Source of the DNA: Deltaproteobacteria bacterium RBG_13_61_14
GTDB taxonomy: Bacteria; RBG-13-61-14
Assembly (NCBI GenBank): GCA_001797815.1
Contig: MGQK01000065.1
Location: 30,376-41,205, forward strand
Length of the DNA: 10,830 bases
Direction of reading: 5' to 3'
Shown: positions 479-5,617 of the stretch, one piece after another
How positions within the stretch are numbered: the first letter of the stretch is position 1
How the letters are laid out: each line of letters begins with the position of its first letter
Position numbers and translations under genes: made by a program
Notes under the pieces: generated by a model
Databases searched by the model: none
Seen by the model: the letters and a program-made list of their open reading frames with translations, nothing else
Told to the model about the DNA's origin: nothing

Positions 479-829
479 CAATAACTGTAAACCTTCATAC
501 ACCCGCGACCAAGGGGAGCAGGCCAAGGTTGAGTCCAGGGATCATCCCTGGCGGCTGCTCGCCGGTCCGCAAAGGGTGGGGGTAAGAAAAACTGCACCAT
601 TTATACATATATAGAGAGATGAAGGGTCAGGGATGAAGGCTGGAATAAAACGATTGTTCGAGATGCTAACCCTGCGATTTCTCAGGGCATTTTTATCCCA
701 GTGCCCCCAAGATGCACCCCCATTCCTGCCATCGGCCCTTCTGAATCCTCCGATCTTCCTCCCCGACTACCCGGGAACCAACTTAACCTGGCGAAATTTC
801 TATTGGTTTCTTCTTCTTCTCTTTCCCGA

Positions 830-850
830 CATACTACATACGACATACGA
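830..850. repeat. heptanucleotide array CATACTA/CATACGA/CATACGA
   Basis: Three exact-period 7-bp units: CATACTA at 830-836, CATACGA at 837-843 and CATACGA at 844-850, followed by a degraded TATACCC. This lies 20-30 bp upstream of the 21-bp minisatellite. Confidence 0.65.
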
Positions 851-870
851 TATACCCTCTTCAAACGTCC

Positions 871-959
871 CCCCATATTGCACGGCAACCACCCCATTCT
901 GCACAGCAACCACCCCATTCTGCTCAGCAACTACCCCATCCTGCGCGGCAACCACCCCA
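871..959. repeat. 21-bp minisatellite, about four copies
   Basis: Units begin at 881, 902, 923 and 944 with an exact 21-bp period. The first two differ by one base, the third is more diverged, and the fourth (944-959) is cut after 16 bases. A partial unit (CCCCATATTG, 871-880) precedes them. The shared core is GCAACCACCCCATTCTG. Because 21 is a multiple of three, all frames stay open and produce apparent seven-residue protein repeats, but no credible gene runs through the array. There are no spacers, so it is not a CRISPR array. Confidence 0.8.
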
Positions 960-1025
960 GCATTTTGAAAAGTAGAAAGTAGTCAGACTTCCGCGAGCTC
1001 CCCTCCTCCTTCCTTTTCTAGATTC

Positions 1026-1335: not shown

Positions 1336-1371
1336 TTGTAGCCCATCCCTCGCTCCGGCGAGAGTGGGTCC
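1336..1371 (+). repeat. left copy of 36-bp inverted repeat
   Basis: This segment, starting TTGTAGCCCATCCC and ending GAGAGTGGGTCC, is the reverse complement of 4136-4171 at 35 of 36 positions (one A/G difference in the GAGAGT versus GAGGGT part). Matching stops at once on both outer and inner sides, so the unit is well bounded. Each copy is itself partly palindromic around CTCCGGCGAG. The two copies enclose the AT-rich gene pair. Confidence 0.85.
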
Positions 1372-1429: not shown

Positions 1430-1517
1430 CACATCTTTGAGGACCCGGAGTCCAAACCCATGAACCCAAAAACCTCATCCTCTCCTTTGCCGGAAGCCTT
1501 CATCCCGCTGGACAAGA

Positions 1518-1572
1518 TTGACCAAATATCTGAATTATGTATGGTGTCCCCCGAATTCCCAGATTTAGGAGG
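1518..1572 (+). promoter_or_regulatory. candidate promoter, repeated upstream element (copy A) and RBS of the 225-aa protein gene
   Basis: TTGACC (1518-1523), a 16-nt gap and TATGGT (1540-1545) make a moderate sigma-70-like promoter. The -10 part sits in a 24-bp element (1534-1557, core TATGGTGTCCCC, ending GAATT) that recurs upstream of the ATPase gene at 2381-2404 with 20 of 24 identical bases. A full Shine-Dalgarno AGGAGG (1567-1572) stands 8 nt before the ATG at 1581. The 24-bp element also resembles GGGGACACCATA-type REP palindromes, so it may be a repeat remnant rather than a regulatory site. Confidence 0.4.
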
Positions 1573-1580
1573 AATTTATA

Positions 1581-2258
1581 ATGGGTAATGGTCCAGTTAT
1601 TATACGCCATGGTCATGATGGTAAAATTACACGGCATGATCCGCATAAATGTCCATCCTCCGGTGGGCTGATTGAAGCGCTTGTAATTGCGGGCCTTACT
1701 GTAGTTATTATAGAAGGATCCCGCGCTCTCTATAGGTGGTGGACTAAAGATGACGAAGAATCTGAAGCGGAAACGATAAACAAACTTCCACAAGTGAACC
1801 TCAAGAAGTCATATGCTGCCAAGAAAGGTCACCTAACAAGAAAAGCAAAATATGTTGTTACAACTTATAAAAAATTGCAGAAACCACGTCCGTTAAAGGA
1901 AGTCGAGAGATTACTAAAAGATCTGCTTGACCAACTCCAAAATTTGAATGAATATGCCAAGCAACTTAATGCCGAGAAGGTCTACTTGAACATTGATGAA
2001 GAAGCTTGGGCAGCTCTTATAAAAATGAAACGAGAAGCCGAAAATACCTGCCTAGGTCTGAAGAAAATTCTATCGCAAAATCAAATAAAGGGATTCCCAA
2101 GGTTCAAAAGGCCAGAATTCCCGGAATCAATGCATCGTACACTACAGAATCTGGTTTTAATTCAAAACCAGATGTATCATGCGCTCGAATTAGCATCTTG
2201 GTGCGCTGAAAACAACCTCGATGTTGATACTCGCCTCTTAGAGGCTCCAAAAGTTTAA
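1581..2258 (+). CDS. unrecognised 225-aa protein with one predicted membrane segment
   Basis: I do not recognise this family. The ATG start has a perfect AGGAGG 8 nt upstream. Residues 1-28 are polar and histidine-rich (IIRHGHDGKITRHDPHKCP). Residues 29-46 form a hydrophobic stretch (EALVIAGLTVVII) long enough for a single membrane helix. It is followed by RALYRWW and a charged segment, which suggests a short N-terminal tail outside and a C-terminal body in the cytoplasm. Residues 70-225 are charged and probably mostly helical (for example VERLLKDLLDQLQNLNEYA), with no catalytic motif that I can name. The codons are AT-rich, unlike the trp genes, but like those of the ATPase gene 188 nt downstream on the same strand. 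The plausible role is a membrane-anchored partner or effector of that ATPase. This is inferred from position alone. A structural search would be the best route to a family. Confidence 0.75.
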   Translation: MGNGPVIIRHGHDGKITRHDPHKCPSSGGLIEALVIAGLTVVIIEGSRALYRWWTKDDEESEAETINKLPQVNLKKSYAAKKGHLTRKAKYVVTTYKKLQKPRPLKEVERLLKDLLDQLQNLNEYAKQLNAEKVYLNIDEEAWAALIKMKREAENTCLGLKKILSQNQIKGFPRFKRPEFPESMHRTLQNLVLIQNQMYHALELASWCAENNLDVDTRLLEAPKV

Positions 2259-2363
2259 AAGATCTGTCTAAAATCTAAGGGAAGAAGAAAGGATCGGTTC
2301 TTTAATTTATTTTTAGACGAGGCTGGCGAAAAATGGGGCAAGGAAAAACCGGAAAAAAGCAAT

Positions 2364-2404
2364 TTGAACAGATAAGCGGAAATAAGTATGGAGTCCCCAG
2401 AATT
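2364..2404 (+). promoter_or_regulatory. candidate promoter and repeated upstream element (copy B) before the ATPase gene
   Basis: TTGAAC (2364-2369), 17 nt and TATGGA (2387-2392) give a weak sigma-70-like promoter. It overlaps the second copy of the 24-bp element (2381-2404, core TATGGAGTCCCC, ending GAATT). Aligned with the region before 1581, similarity extends back to the TTGA part: about 32 of 42 aligned bases match with one gap. The two genes may therefore share a regulatory input. A REP-type repeat origin remains possible. Confidence 0.35.
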
Positions 2405-2417
2405 AGAATTATTCTAA
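2403..2417. promoter_or_regulatory. perfect 7-1-7 palindrome, candidate operator
   Basis: TTAGAAT (2403-2409), a central T, and ATTCTAA (2411-2417) form an exact inverted repeat without a loop large enough for a stable RNA hairpin. Its size fits a dimeric regulator site. It lies between the putative -10 region and the Shine-Dalgarno of the ATPase gene. No copy is visible before the 225-aa gene. In AT-rich DNA such palindromes can also arise by chance. Confidence 0.35.
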
Positions 2418-2446
2418 ATTAAATATTAATTGGAGGATTCTGAAAT

Positions 2447-4015
2447 TTGCCTGGCAATAAACTAAACGATGTTGAGAGGAAATTGTATGATTGGTGGTCC
2501 AGCAACCAATCATTAAAATTTCCTAATTTGAATAAAATATATGTATACGGAAGACCTGGACATCCTGGAATTAGGGGAATAATAAATCTAAAAATCGAAT
2601 TTAGGTTTCCTCTAACAGTTATTTGTGGGAAAAATGGCTCAGGAAAATCAACATTGCTGGCTTTGGCGGTATTAGGATATCATTCGCCTGATAATCATTA
2701 TGCGAGAGATGCTAATTGTCAAAACAAAAAAGCAAATTGTACCTATTATACATTTAGCAAATTTTTTTATAAGGGCCCACAAGACCCAGATATTACAGGA
2801 GCCTTTATAAGTTGGGATTATAGTGATGGCTTTATTTGGATAGAAAAAAGATCAAACAAATGGATGCATTATGAGCGTCGCCCTCGCCGCCCGGTTCATT
2901 ATATAGGAGTTCGAAGAAGGGCTCCAGCGATTGAAGAAGGTAGTCTTCGATACCGATTCCCTTCTTCTTCAGCATCTAACCGCAATCCGCTAAACGAAGA
3001 ATATCGGAAACGGTTAAGTGATATAATGGGAAGAGAATATGAAAGTGCATATGTTCTAGATTCAGAAAATTACAGTGTGCGAACATGCAATTGCGGAGGT
3101 TTCTATTCAAGCTTTAATATGGGAACAGGCGAAGATACCTTAATTGAGCTTCTGCATATTTTACAGGAAACTCCAGAAGGATCACTCATAGTTGTAGAAG
3201 AGATCGAATTAGGCCTCCATCCCGAGGCAGTAGCAAAATTGGCAAGGCATTTACAAGAGATTATTTTAATAAAAAAGTTTCAAGTAGTTGTATCATCTCA
3301 TTCTGAGCATTTTATTGATAATGTTCCAAGGATGGCTAGGGTACTAATAGAGAAGGCACATACAACACATGCCATTATTTACTGTCCAACTACACGCTTT
3401 GCTCTTGGCTCTATGGAAGGCAGGTCGAGGCCTGAACTAAAAGCCTATTGTGAAGATGTGTTTTCTTCTATTTTAATTCAGAAATCTTTGTCATTAAAGG
3501 TAAGGAAGAGAGTTGAGATAATTCCTTTGGGATCTAAAAATCAACTACCAGAACAAGCTAAATTTCACGTTAAGGGAAAATTCAATGAAAAAATAATAAT
3601 AATTTGGGATGGCGAGGTATCTAGAGACGAGGCAAAAAAATGGTTAAATCAAGATTTTACGAATGATATGAGCTTACTTGATAAAGTTAATTGGGCTTTT
3701 TTGCCTGGCAATGAAATCCCTGAGAGATGGGTCATTAATAAATTGGATTGCGAGGAAGGATACAACTTGATTGCTGCCGAGCTAATGGCAGACAAAACTT
3801 TTGTTACAGGACTAATTGAAAAACTAAAGGTGGAAAGGTCTCACCATGATATATTTTACCGAGCGGCAATAGAATGTAACATTGATAAGATGGAAGCTAT
3901 AAACATATTCTCAAGATCAGTATCCAGATTATCTAATCAACCATTAAAATCAATATCTATAGCATTAGAAGATGTTCTGGAAGGGAAGCTCGTTCATCAA
4001 GAGATCGCTATTTAG
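2447..4015 (+). CDS. OLD-like ATPase with ABC-type motifs and C-terminal TOPRIM-like region
   Basis: A 522-aa protein. The TTG start is supported by GGAGG at 2432-2436 with 10 nt spacing. Walker A is GKNGSGKST (61-69), a signature-like segment MGTGEDTLIELL is at 225-236, Walker B is LIVVEEIELGLHP (247-259) and the H-switch is VVSSHSEHF (281-289). Together these mark the AAA_21/OLD branch of ABC-like ATPases, which act on DNA or as sensors rather than in transport. The C-terminal part has TOPRIM-like landmarks: YCED (334-337), PLGS (360-363), IIIIWDGE (383-390) and LPGNEIPE (419-426). This order matches OLD-family nucleases, although the usual D-x-D is D-x-E here. OLD proteins include the P2 exclusion protein and GajA of Gabija, so a phage-defence role is plausible but not shown. 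Between Walker A and the signature is a poorly conserved insert with CxC (214-216). Base composition matches the upstream 225-aa gene and suggests acquisition together. Confidence 0.85.
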   Translation: MPGNKLNDVERKLYDWWSSNQSLKFPNLNKIYVYGRPGHPGIRGIINLKIEFRFPLTVICGKNGSGKSTLLALAVLGYHSPDNHYARDANCQNKKANCTYYTFSKFFYKGPQDPDITGAFISWDYSDGFIWIEKRSNKWMHYERRPRRPVHYIGVRRRAPAIEEGSLRYRFPSSSASNRNPLNEEYRKRLSDIMGREYESAYVLDSENYSVRTCNCGGFYSSFNMGTGEDTLIELLHILQETPEGSLIVVEEIELGLHPEAVAKLARHLQEIILIKKFQVVVSSHSEHFIDNVPRMARVLIEKAHTTHAIIYCPTTRFALGSMEGRSRPELKAYCEDVFSSILIQKSLSLKVRKRVEIIPLGSKNQLPEQAKFHVKGKFNEKIIIIWDGEVSRDEAKKWLNQDFTNDMSLLDKVNWAFLPGNEIPERWVINKLDCEEGYNLIAAELMADKTFVTGLIEKLKVERSHHDIFYRAAIECNIDKMEAINIFSRSVSRLSNQPLKSISIALEDVLEGKLVHQEIAI

Positions 4016-4121
4016 AACGCTTAGTGTCTCCGGCCTAGGAAAATAATAAAACATGAAAAAACATGGTGTCAAGGCTTTACTTTAAACATTAAATAATTGC
4101 ATGGAGAAGATTGGCGCTTTC

Positions 4122-4135
4122 GGTTCGTGGTTCGT
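4122..4135. repeat. heptanucleotide repeat GGTTCGT x2
   Basis: GGTTCGT is repeated exactly at 4122-4128 and 4129-4135 and abuts the right copy of the 36-bp inverted repeat. Confidence 0.6.
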
Positions 4136-4171
4136 GGACCCACCCTCGCCGGAGCGAGGGATGGGCTACAA
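4136..4171 (-). repeat. right copy of 36-bp inverted repeat
   Basis: The segment begins GGACCCACCCTCGCC and ends GGGATGGGCTACAA. Its reverse complement matches 1336-1371 at 35 of 36 positions. It lies 120 bp after the ATPase stop codon. Confidence 0.85.
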
Positions 4172-4223
4172 GGATGGTTAAAGGCTGACGAGCAATAATG
4201 TCTGCCCCCCTTAACGGTAGGCA

Positions 4224-4237
4224 AGTAGTCAGTAGTC
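4224..4237. repeat. heptanucleotide repeat AGTAGTC x2
   Basis: AGTAGTC occurs twice in tandem (4224-4230, 4231-4237) and is followed by a partial AG. The 10-mer AAGTAGTCAG at 4223-4232 also occurs in the same orientation at 977-986 on the left side of the cassette. Confidence 0.55.
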
Positions 4238-4294
4238 AGGTTGCAGGGGGAAATAGAGACCCTTCGTGTCTTTTCGTGGATGAAGAAAAGAGGT

Positions 4295-4452
4295 TTCACG
4301 CCAAGACGCAAAGGAGCAAAAATCTAAACGATTGGCGGCTTTAAATTCTTTGCGACTAAGCCGGCCGACTTGAGCCGGAGAAGAGGATGAGTTCCTAAGG
4401 CGCCAAGCCTCTTGGCTTTTTCAGCCTTTCCAACTTTGCGGCTTTGCGTGAG
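4295..4452. repeat. imperfect long inverted repeat of the CCAAGACGCAAAG type
   Basis: The arms 4295-4313 (TTCACGCCAAGACGCAAAG) and 4434-4452 (CTTTGCGGCTTTGCGTGAG) are reverse complements at 16 of 19 positions. The 120 bp between them contain further degenerate copies of the same words (for example TTCTTTGCGAC) and the hairpin at 4402-4421. Confidence 0.55.
4402..4421 (+). terminator. intrinsic-terminator-like hairpin
   Basis: GCCAAG (4402-4407) pairs with CTTGGC (4411-4416) around a CCT loop and is followed directly by TTTTT (4417-4421). The shape fits a short rho-independent terminator on the plus strand and could stop read-through from the cassette into trpD. It lies within a repeat family, so the fit may be incidental. 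Confidence 0.45.
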
Positions 4453-4488
4453 AATTCTTCCGTCTGATATCTCTCTTAAGTAAACAGC

Positions 4489-4507
4489 ATTAGGAGCTGA
4501 CCCTAAT
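4489..4507. repeat. small REP-like hairpin
   Basis: ATTAGG (4489-4494) and CCTAAT (4502-4507) pair around a 7-nt loop, AGCTGAC. The layout (TAGG, GCTG, CCCTA) parallels the hairpin at 1026-1051, so related elements lie on both sides of the cassette. Confidence 0.45.
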
Positions 4508-4518
4508 TTCTACAGAAT

Positions 4519-4547
4519 TTGTTAATTAACTCGCGTAATGCTATACT
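4519..4547 (+). promoter_or_regulatory. sigma-70-type promoter of the trpDCF operon
   Basis: TTGTTA (4519-4524), a 17-nt spacer and TATACT (4542-4547) match the consensus at 4 of 6 and 5 of 6 bases. Transcription would start near 4554, giving a leader of about 44 nt. That is too short for a classical Trp-codon leader peptide and attenuator, and none is visible. Confidence 0.65.
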
Positions 4548-4597
4548 GAAGCGGATCGCGGTTATCCAGGAGAAATCACGATCTCGAGGGCAGGGCC

Positions 4598-5617
4598 ATG
4601 ATCAAAGAAGCCATTGGTGAACTGGTCAAGGGGAGGAATCTCAGCCGGGAGGTCATGACCCAGGTGATGAACCAGATCATGTCCGGAGAGGCGAGCGAGG
4701 CGCAGATCGGGTCGTTCCTGACCGCGCTCCGCCTGAAGGGCGAGACGGTGGAGGAGATCACCGGGGCCGCGGAGGTGATGCGGGAAAAGGCGCTCAAGAT
4801 CAAGGCGCCGGGCGAGTGCCTTGATACCTGCGGCACCGGCGGCGACCATTCGCTGTCCATCAACATCTCCACCGGCGCCGCCCTGGTCGCGGCCGCGGCC
4901 GGGCTCACGGTGGCCAAGCACGGCAACCGCGCCGCTTCCTCCGCCTGCGGCAGCGCCGACGTGCTCAAGGCGCTGGGCGTGAACATCGAGGCCGAGCCTC
5001 CGGTGGTGGAGAGGTGCCTCCGCGAAGTCGGCATCGGCTTCCTGTTCGCGCCGCTCCTCCACGGCGCCATGCGCTACGCCATCGGCCCGCGGCGGGAGAT
5101 CGGGATCCGAACCATCTTCAATGTGCTCGGCCCGCTGACCAACCCGGCCGGGGCCAGCCGGCAGCTTTTGGGCGTCTTTGAGGAGAGCTTGACCGAGACC
5201 CTGGCCCGGGTCCTTCATTACCTGGGCAGCCGCGCCGCCCTGGTGGTGCACGGCCTGGACGGATTGGATGAGATCACCCTCACCGGCCCCACCCGGGTCT
5301 CCGAGCTTAAGCAGGGCCAGGTCAAGAATTACACCATCTCCCCGGAGGACTTCGGCCTGAAACCCTGCCGGCTCGACGACCTGCGCGGCGGCGACCCGGA
5401 GCACAACGCCCAGGTCCTGCGCGAGGTCTTTGCCGACCGCCCCGGCCCGGCGCGGGACGCGGTCGCGCTTAATGCCGGCGCCGCCATTTACGTGGGCGGC
5501 AAGGCGCCGACCCTGGCCGAGGGATTCAAACTGGCCCAGGAGACCCTGGCCGGGGGGAAGGCCCTGGAAAAACTCGAACAGTTGATCCAGGTGTCGCGCG
5601 CGAAACTGCCGGCATGA
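4598..5617 (+). CDS. trpD: anthranilate phosphoribosyltransferase
   Basis: TrpD transfers the phosphoribosyl group of PRPP to anthranilate, the second committed step of tryptophan synthesis in the cytoplasm. The 339-aa length is normal for a single-domain TrpD without a fused glutamine amidotransferase. The PRPP-binding loop CGTGGD is at 78-83, the anthranilate/PRPP region KHGNRAASS at 107-115 followed by GSADVLKALG, and the metal-binding Asp-Glu pair in GLDGLDEI at 224-225. ATG 4598 has GAGGG at 4586-4590, 7 nt upstream. A stronger-looking AGGAGA at 4568-4573 has no ATG, GTG or TTG start at the right distance. It is the first gene of a three-gene operon, and its stop overlaps the trpC start by ATGA. 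Codon use is strongly GC-rich and unlike the cassette upstream. Confidence 0.96.
   Translation: MIKEAIGELVKGRNLSREVMTQVMNQIMSGEASEAQIGSFLTALRLKGETVEEITGAAEVMREKALKIKAPGECLDTCGTGGDHSLSINISTGAALVAAAAGLTVAKHGNRAASSACGSADVLKALGVNIEAEPPVVERCLREVGIGFLFAPLLHGAMRYAIGPRREIGIRTIFNVLGPLTNPAGASRQLLGVFEESLTETLARVLHYLGSRAALVVHGLDGLDEITLTGPTRVSELKQGQVKNYTISPEDFGLKPCRLDDLRGGDPEHNAQVLREVFADRPGPARDAVALNAGAAIYVGGKAPTLAEGFKLAQETLAGGKALEKLEQLIQVSRAKLPA

Follow-up and report, generated by a model that had tools for sequence, protein, structure and literature searches.

The window analysed here is a stretch of 10,830 nucleotides, bases 30376-41205 of contig 65 in a 4.74-Mb assembly. It contains two neighbouring AT-rich open reading frames on the same strand, P0001 and P0002 (Table 1). 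An initial annotation had placed two such genes here between GC-rich DNA, and both were found; the GC profile agrees with this, at 0.34-0.41 across the pair versus 0.50-0.57 upstream and 0.63-0.70 downstream, where trpD, trpC, trpF and genes for a penicillin amidase and a nucleotidyltransferase follow. The description of the two genes in that annotation was accurate and left out the dispersed repeats that surround both of them.

These repeats are LR, MR and RR, present in the genome in 4 full, 3 and 5 long copies, respectively, including those of the window, together with the inverted repeat IR36. An 18-nt phrase, TATGGWGTCCCCMGAATT, stands ahead of both genes and is referred to as the leader motif. 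The intergenic DNA of this genome is repeat-rich in general. Window positions 600-975, for example, are intergenic DNA full of repeats, with a 21-nt tandem repeat at 871-975 and a dispersed repeat of ~340 nt that has copies on contigs C81, C125, and C127.

Table 1. Features of the window, numbered from its first nucleotide (C44, C65, C79, and C90 are contigs of the assembly)
Feature	Position	Strand	Description
IR36	1336..1371; 4136-4171	+; minus	inverted 36-nt repeat flanking the pair; arms 97% complementary; more genome copies
LR	1447..1561	+	before P0001, ends in leader motif; three other full genome copies, 85-90%
Leader motif	1540-1557; 2387-2404		one ahead of each gene
P0001	1581..2258	+	225 aa, GC 0.41; N-terminal transmembrane helix and helical body
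P0001 transmembrane helix	~1662-1718	+	residues ~28-46, N-terminal, from hydropathy
MR	2312..2410	+	in P0001-P0002 spacer, with second leader motif; other copies C65:25942-26040 and C44:2172-2318
P0002	2447..4015	+	522 aa, TTG start, GC 0.37; ABC ATPase-TOPRIM, HEC-04/IbfA-related, class-1-like OLD
ABC (SMC/OLD-type) ATPase domain	2522..3421	+	invariant columns; fold match to PtuA/Rad50/SMC heads, Z ~16-18
Walker A GKNGSGKST	2627-2653	+	residues 61-69, conserved in 13-sequence alignment
Signature YSSFNMGTGE	3104-3133	+	residues 220-229, conserved in 13-sequence alignment
Walker B SLIVVEE	3182-3202	+	residues 246-252, conserved in 13-sequence alignment
His switch H285	3299-3301	+	conserved in 13-sequence alignment
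TOPRIM-like domain	3422..3742	+	modelled strand/helix order; invariant E336, D388, P425, E426; long Foldseek alignment to full-length TsOLD
E336 (TOPRIM)	3452-3454	+	invariant
D388-x-E390 (TOPRIM)	3608-3616	+	after strand 382-387; D388 invariant
LPGxxxPE (TOPRIM)	3701-3724	+	holds invariant P425, E426
RR	4082..4211	+	after P0002, contains IR36; four other long copies (C65, C79, C90, C44) and shorter partials

ATPase and TOPRIM-like architecture of P0002

P0002 joins an ABC ATPase of the SMC/OLD type to a TOPRIM-like domain. In Pfam it matches AAA_21/AAA_15, and its top PADLOC model is HEC-04 (E 9.2e-40, a partial alignment covering profile positions 118-419 of 494), with the runner-up at 5e-19; the PADLOC profile ATPase-Toprim_I-B is matched as well. 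The Walker A, signature, Walker B, H-switch, and TOPRIM-like landmarks initially read from the sequence are real and conserved across 13 aligned sequences. Invariant positions in this alignment include G61, N63, G66, K67, and T69 in Walker A, Y220, S221, N224, M225, G226, G228, and E229 in the signature, E252 in Walker B, and further H285, E336, D337, G362, D388, P425, E426, and H467. The third TOPRIM acid, residue 390 (3614-3616), is E in P0002 and in one relative (L040) and D in most relatives, and the E in place of D may alter the metal site. The TTG start is supported by the (M/L/V)PGxxL motif that opens the close relatives.

In the predicted structure of P0002 (pLDDT 86.3, pTM 0.82), the TOPRIM layout, with an acid following strand 1 and DxD/E following strand 3, is intact: the modelled order is strand 331-335, E336, helix 338-347, strand 356-360, helix 366-376, strand 382-387, and D388xE390. 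Foldseek ranked TsOLD first for this model (E 1.6e-10), then GajA and retron-Eco8, while a VIA-align 2 comparison, which covered mainly the ATPase part (residues 21-328), returned PtuA, SMC, and Rad50 heads at Z ~16-18. Sequence search gave no match to a TOPRIM domain in P0002 itself, Pfam OLD-like_TOPRIM was reached weakly in one relative (E ~0.001-0.004), and a profile of the isolated TOPRIM domain had no match among PDB sequences. The TOPRIM assignment is drawn from the layout and the conserved acids, from the Foldseek alignment, and from two profiles, HEC-04 and ATPase-Toprim_I-B; sequence searches with the domain alone were weak or empty. We class P0002 as a further HEC-04-related, class-1-like OLD.

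Relatives of P0002 and their neighbourhoods

In a pattern scan, 84,980 species genomes yielded 165 relatives of P0002, and the best 80 were kept. The 11 closest among these 80, with 33-44% identity to P0002, come from Actinomycetota, Bacillota, Lentisphaerota, Verrucomicrobiota, Pseudomonadota, and Deinococcota and have the (M/L/V)PGxxL N-terminus in common. Together with P0002 they form a 12-row clade in a tree of 78 rows, with support 100/99 and members from at least 6 phyla; in the same tree the branch leading to IbfA is very long. Plasmid searches with tblastn recovered a Rhodovastum protein (24.6% over 83%) and the IbfA of IncI1 plasmids (26% over 72% of P0002). There was no tblastn match in phages and no exact-pattern match in viral contigs, and an alignment query of viral contigs gave 7 distant matches, one of which (L011) turned out to be a different ATPase. 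No relative was found at E 1e-8 in the phylum's other two genomes compared.

The head of P0002 resembles Rad50/SMC, as would be expected of a RecF/Rad50-like ATPase with a housekeeping role in recombination or repair, but we regard such a role as very improbable. The gene is AT-rich against its genome, its relatives are patchy over distant phyla, and it is missing from the two same-order genomes at E 1e-8. In addition, the protein carries a fused TOPRIM-like domain, and its top profile is a defence family.

Outside L003, neighbours of the relatives were named by eye from their ORFs. Three relatives (L032, L034, L035) lie in type I R-M loci, and another (L013) adjoins a Hma-like methylase. DNA cytosine methyltransferases, annotated as such in L003, are found beside or near L003, L008, L010, L016, and L017, and these five might mark a methyltransferase-linked subgroup. 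L003 also has a very short patch repair endonuclease with its methyltransferase. Judged from sequence, the P0002-type ATPase behaves as a single-gene family, and its surroundings have a defence flavour.

P0001 and the dispersed repeats around the pair

The analysis agrees with the single hydrophobic helix and helical body described for the 225-aa protein in the initial annotation: the lone hydrophobic segment of P0001 scores 2.03 on the Kyte-Doolittle scale from residue 26, and its helical body is basic, with a pI of 9.3. Its single-sequence fold was poor (pLDDT 45). No family was found at a meaningful score in Pfam, NCBIfam, PADLOC, or PHROGs, and tblastn found no relatives in plasmids. IMG/VR and the 84,980 species genomes held none by a search of exact 8-residue stretches, by which close relatives alone are detectable. 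Matches in 386 sampled genomes were weak and none was credible, and the phylum's other two genomes compared had none at E 0.001. The best of these weak matches (L173, E 0.003) was rejected as a chance overlapping-frame match, because a same-strand ORF for a 407-aa membrane protein encloses its 122-aa frame.

The two genes had been proposed to form an undescribed two-gene defence module, together with the suggestion to count how often a homologue of the 225-aa protein lies upstream of the ATPase. A maximum-sensitivity phmmer search of P0001 against all ORFs of at least 40 aa in the fetched loci, which a partner diverged beyond recognition would escape, gave a count of 0/80 for the best 80 of 165 relatives. 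At least 870 nt lay upstream in 73 of these 80 loci and in 10 of the 11 close relatives, leaving room for a gene placed like P0001. Genes upstream of the ATPase vary between the 80 loci, and no small TM gene was seen in the place of P0001 among the close relatives. Homologues of the ATPase thus usually occur without the 225-aa protein, the outcome that the initial annotation had named as refuting its proposal. With no relative of that protein detected in these loci or in the genome sets searched, the proposed module is not supported.

A lineage-specific two-gene system, in which P0001 would anchor the ATPase at the membrane or else sense or restrain it, therefore seems improbable to us, although the genes are neighbours on the same strand and both AT-rich. 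Defence genes often acquire fast-evolving partners, and a distant Campylobacterales relative (L043) likewise has a TM-plus-helical gene, encoding 208 aa (4198-4824), 84 nt directly upstream of its ATPase. Relatedness of that upstream protein to P0001 is, however, not detectable (3.8 bits), and similar TM-plus-helical orphans occur elsewhere in the genome of the window without such an ATPase (L113 2342-3085, L126 8650-9345). Moreover, the gap between P0001 and P0002, 188 nt, is mostly dispersed repeat carrying its own leader motif, and the relative IbfA functions as a single gene (PMC12111858).

The order LR-ORF-MR-ORF-RR is found at all three MR loci, the window included, so the spacer is not specific to this pair. 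The second array (C65:25.3-26.8 kb) holds a 191-aa unknown and a DUF2007 protein, and the third (C44:0.7-3.3 kb) a Kelch protein and a TM orphan; with these contents, the idea that the arrays are defence-specific was dropped. Since the spacer is dispersed repeat and the layout surrounds unrelated gene pairs too, the adjacency of P0001 and P0002 looks like cassette assembly and not like a functional pair. The three loci with all three repeats and differing genes are also the basis of a doubtful further reading, that the pair belongs to a family of repeat-delimited arrays (LR-gene-MR-gene-RR) with integron-like collecting of unrelated, often AT-rich genes. The array pattern may reflect merely where foreign genes land.

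The 18-nt core of the leader motif has 61 genome copies with up to 2 mismatches, versus 0 for a reversed control, and some copies of the leader repeat GAATTAAGTATGGTGTCCCC[C/A]GAATT occur in inverted pairs ~48 nt apart. As a promoter, TTGACC-N16-TATGGT fits before P0001, yet by eye there was no consistent -35 across 64 sites. Because of this, and because similar variants occur in 8/289 other sampled genomes, we regard the motif as a dispersed repeat. Of the ORFs adjoining it, about half have a GC content below 0.45, versus 15 of 303 ORFs across 400 kb from three contigs, a ratio that serves only as a rough guide because the two counts used differing length cut-offs (60 and 100 aa).

Genes behind the motif include those for a CAP12-type TIR protein, a PDC-S06 ATPase, a SIR2 protein, and an FRG protein. 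At one locus (L111 2227-4684, C79:46.7-49.2 kb), an AT-rich two-gene cassette lies between inverted copies of the same 36-nt repeat, IR36. It encodes a CAP12-PCTIR TIR protein together with a 437-aa protein that has no clear family, and the two may be a TIR defence pair not described before. At another (L112 2173-4869, C127), an 898-aa AAA_13 ATPase, PADLOC candidate PDC-S06 (E 1.5e-129), stands behind a copy of the left repeat. A third (L168 5012-7601, C125) has an AT-rich trio of an FRG protein (PDC-S15), a GmrSD_N-type protein, and a small protein with a hydrophobic start.

We consider it likely that P0002 is an OLD-like defence protein, related to HEC-04/IbfA, that stands alone, and that P0001 is a passenger of its own, anchored in the membrane and restricted to this lineage; the two would adjoin because both lie in AT-rich DNA delimited by repeats. 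From the initial proposal, an OLD-like ATPase/TOPRIM protein with a defence role is retained as probable, by the HEC-04 (9e-40) and ATPase-Toprim_I-B profiles and the TsOLD, GajA, and Eco8 folds, and the two-gene system is not. Dispersed repeats can bring genes together by chance into what looks like a neat two-gene AT-rich cassette.

Comparison with known defence systems

The PARIS AriA models PDLC02979/PDLC02980 match the ATPase residues of P0002 only. As for AriB (DUF4435 TOPRIM), no separate TOPRIM gene lies near P0002, and DUF4435 was not reported for P0002 itself. AriB, the TOPRIM protein of PARIS, acts as an RNA/tRNA-cleaving toxin, and P0002 could be an AriB-like toxin head of this kind instead of a DNA nuclease. 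The AriA profile is matched by 13/13 aligned sequences and the solved AriA structure aligns to P0002 at Z ~16, but the PARIS TOPRIM is usually a separate gene, whereas that of P0002 is fused and Foldseek places OLD, GajA, and retron-Eco8 highest; we therefore think this unlikely.

Gabija shares with P0002 the GajA-type ATPase-TOPRIM architecture but has a GajB helicase as partner, in contrast to the orphan membrane protein here: no UvrD/PcrA/Rep-like GajB lies beside P0002, whose neighbours in the window are P0001, TrpD, TrpC, TrpF, the penicillin amidase, and the nucleotidyltransferase. The likeness to type I-B retrons consists of the ATPase-Toprim_I-B profile, matched by all 13 aligned sequences, and the Eco8 effector in the fold list, and no reverse transcriptase was found near P0002 among the window ORFs given a family. 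Class 1 OLD proteins (P2 Old, T. scotoductus OLD) combine an ABC ATPase and a TOPRIM domain, TOPRIM-like in P0002, in a stand-alone gene and provide the top fold. All of their ATPase features (Walker A, signature, Walker B, His switch) are present in P0002, and their single-gene trait is seen in the absence of a conserved neighbour across 80 loci (best 80 of 165 relatives). Identity to class 1 OLD in the Foldseek alignment is 13%, and the P0002 nuclease is putative.

By analogy with OLD, HEC-04, and IbfA, two P0002 ABC heads would probably pair as an ATP-bound dimer. A trigger produced by the phage would then shift the ATPase state and free the C-terminal TOPRIM domain, which would cleave nucleic acid, either DNA as in OLD or RNA. 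Such cleavage would be expected to halt phage production, probably by abortive infection.

The IncI1 plasmids that encode IbfA occur in Salmonella and E. coli. This ATPase-TOPRIM protein brings phage yield down, and cloned alone under its own promoter it reduces phage plating; it is called homologous to HEC-04, which is reported to be active against T4 and T5 (PMC12111858). P0002 differs from IbfA in sequence (~23-26% identity), in the MPGxxL N-terminus of its clade, and in the E at its third TOPRIM acid. HEC-04/IbfA and P0002 are alike in domain order, length (518-522 aa), and single-gene behaviour, and HEC-04 is the top PADLOC match, the best of the defence profiles for P0002 and one matched by 13/13 aligned sequences. 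This places a stand-alone OLD-like ATPase-TOPRIM clade of at least 6 phyla beside HEC-04/IbfA, which have shown activity in experiments.
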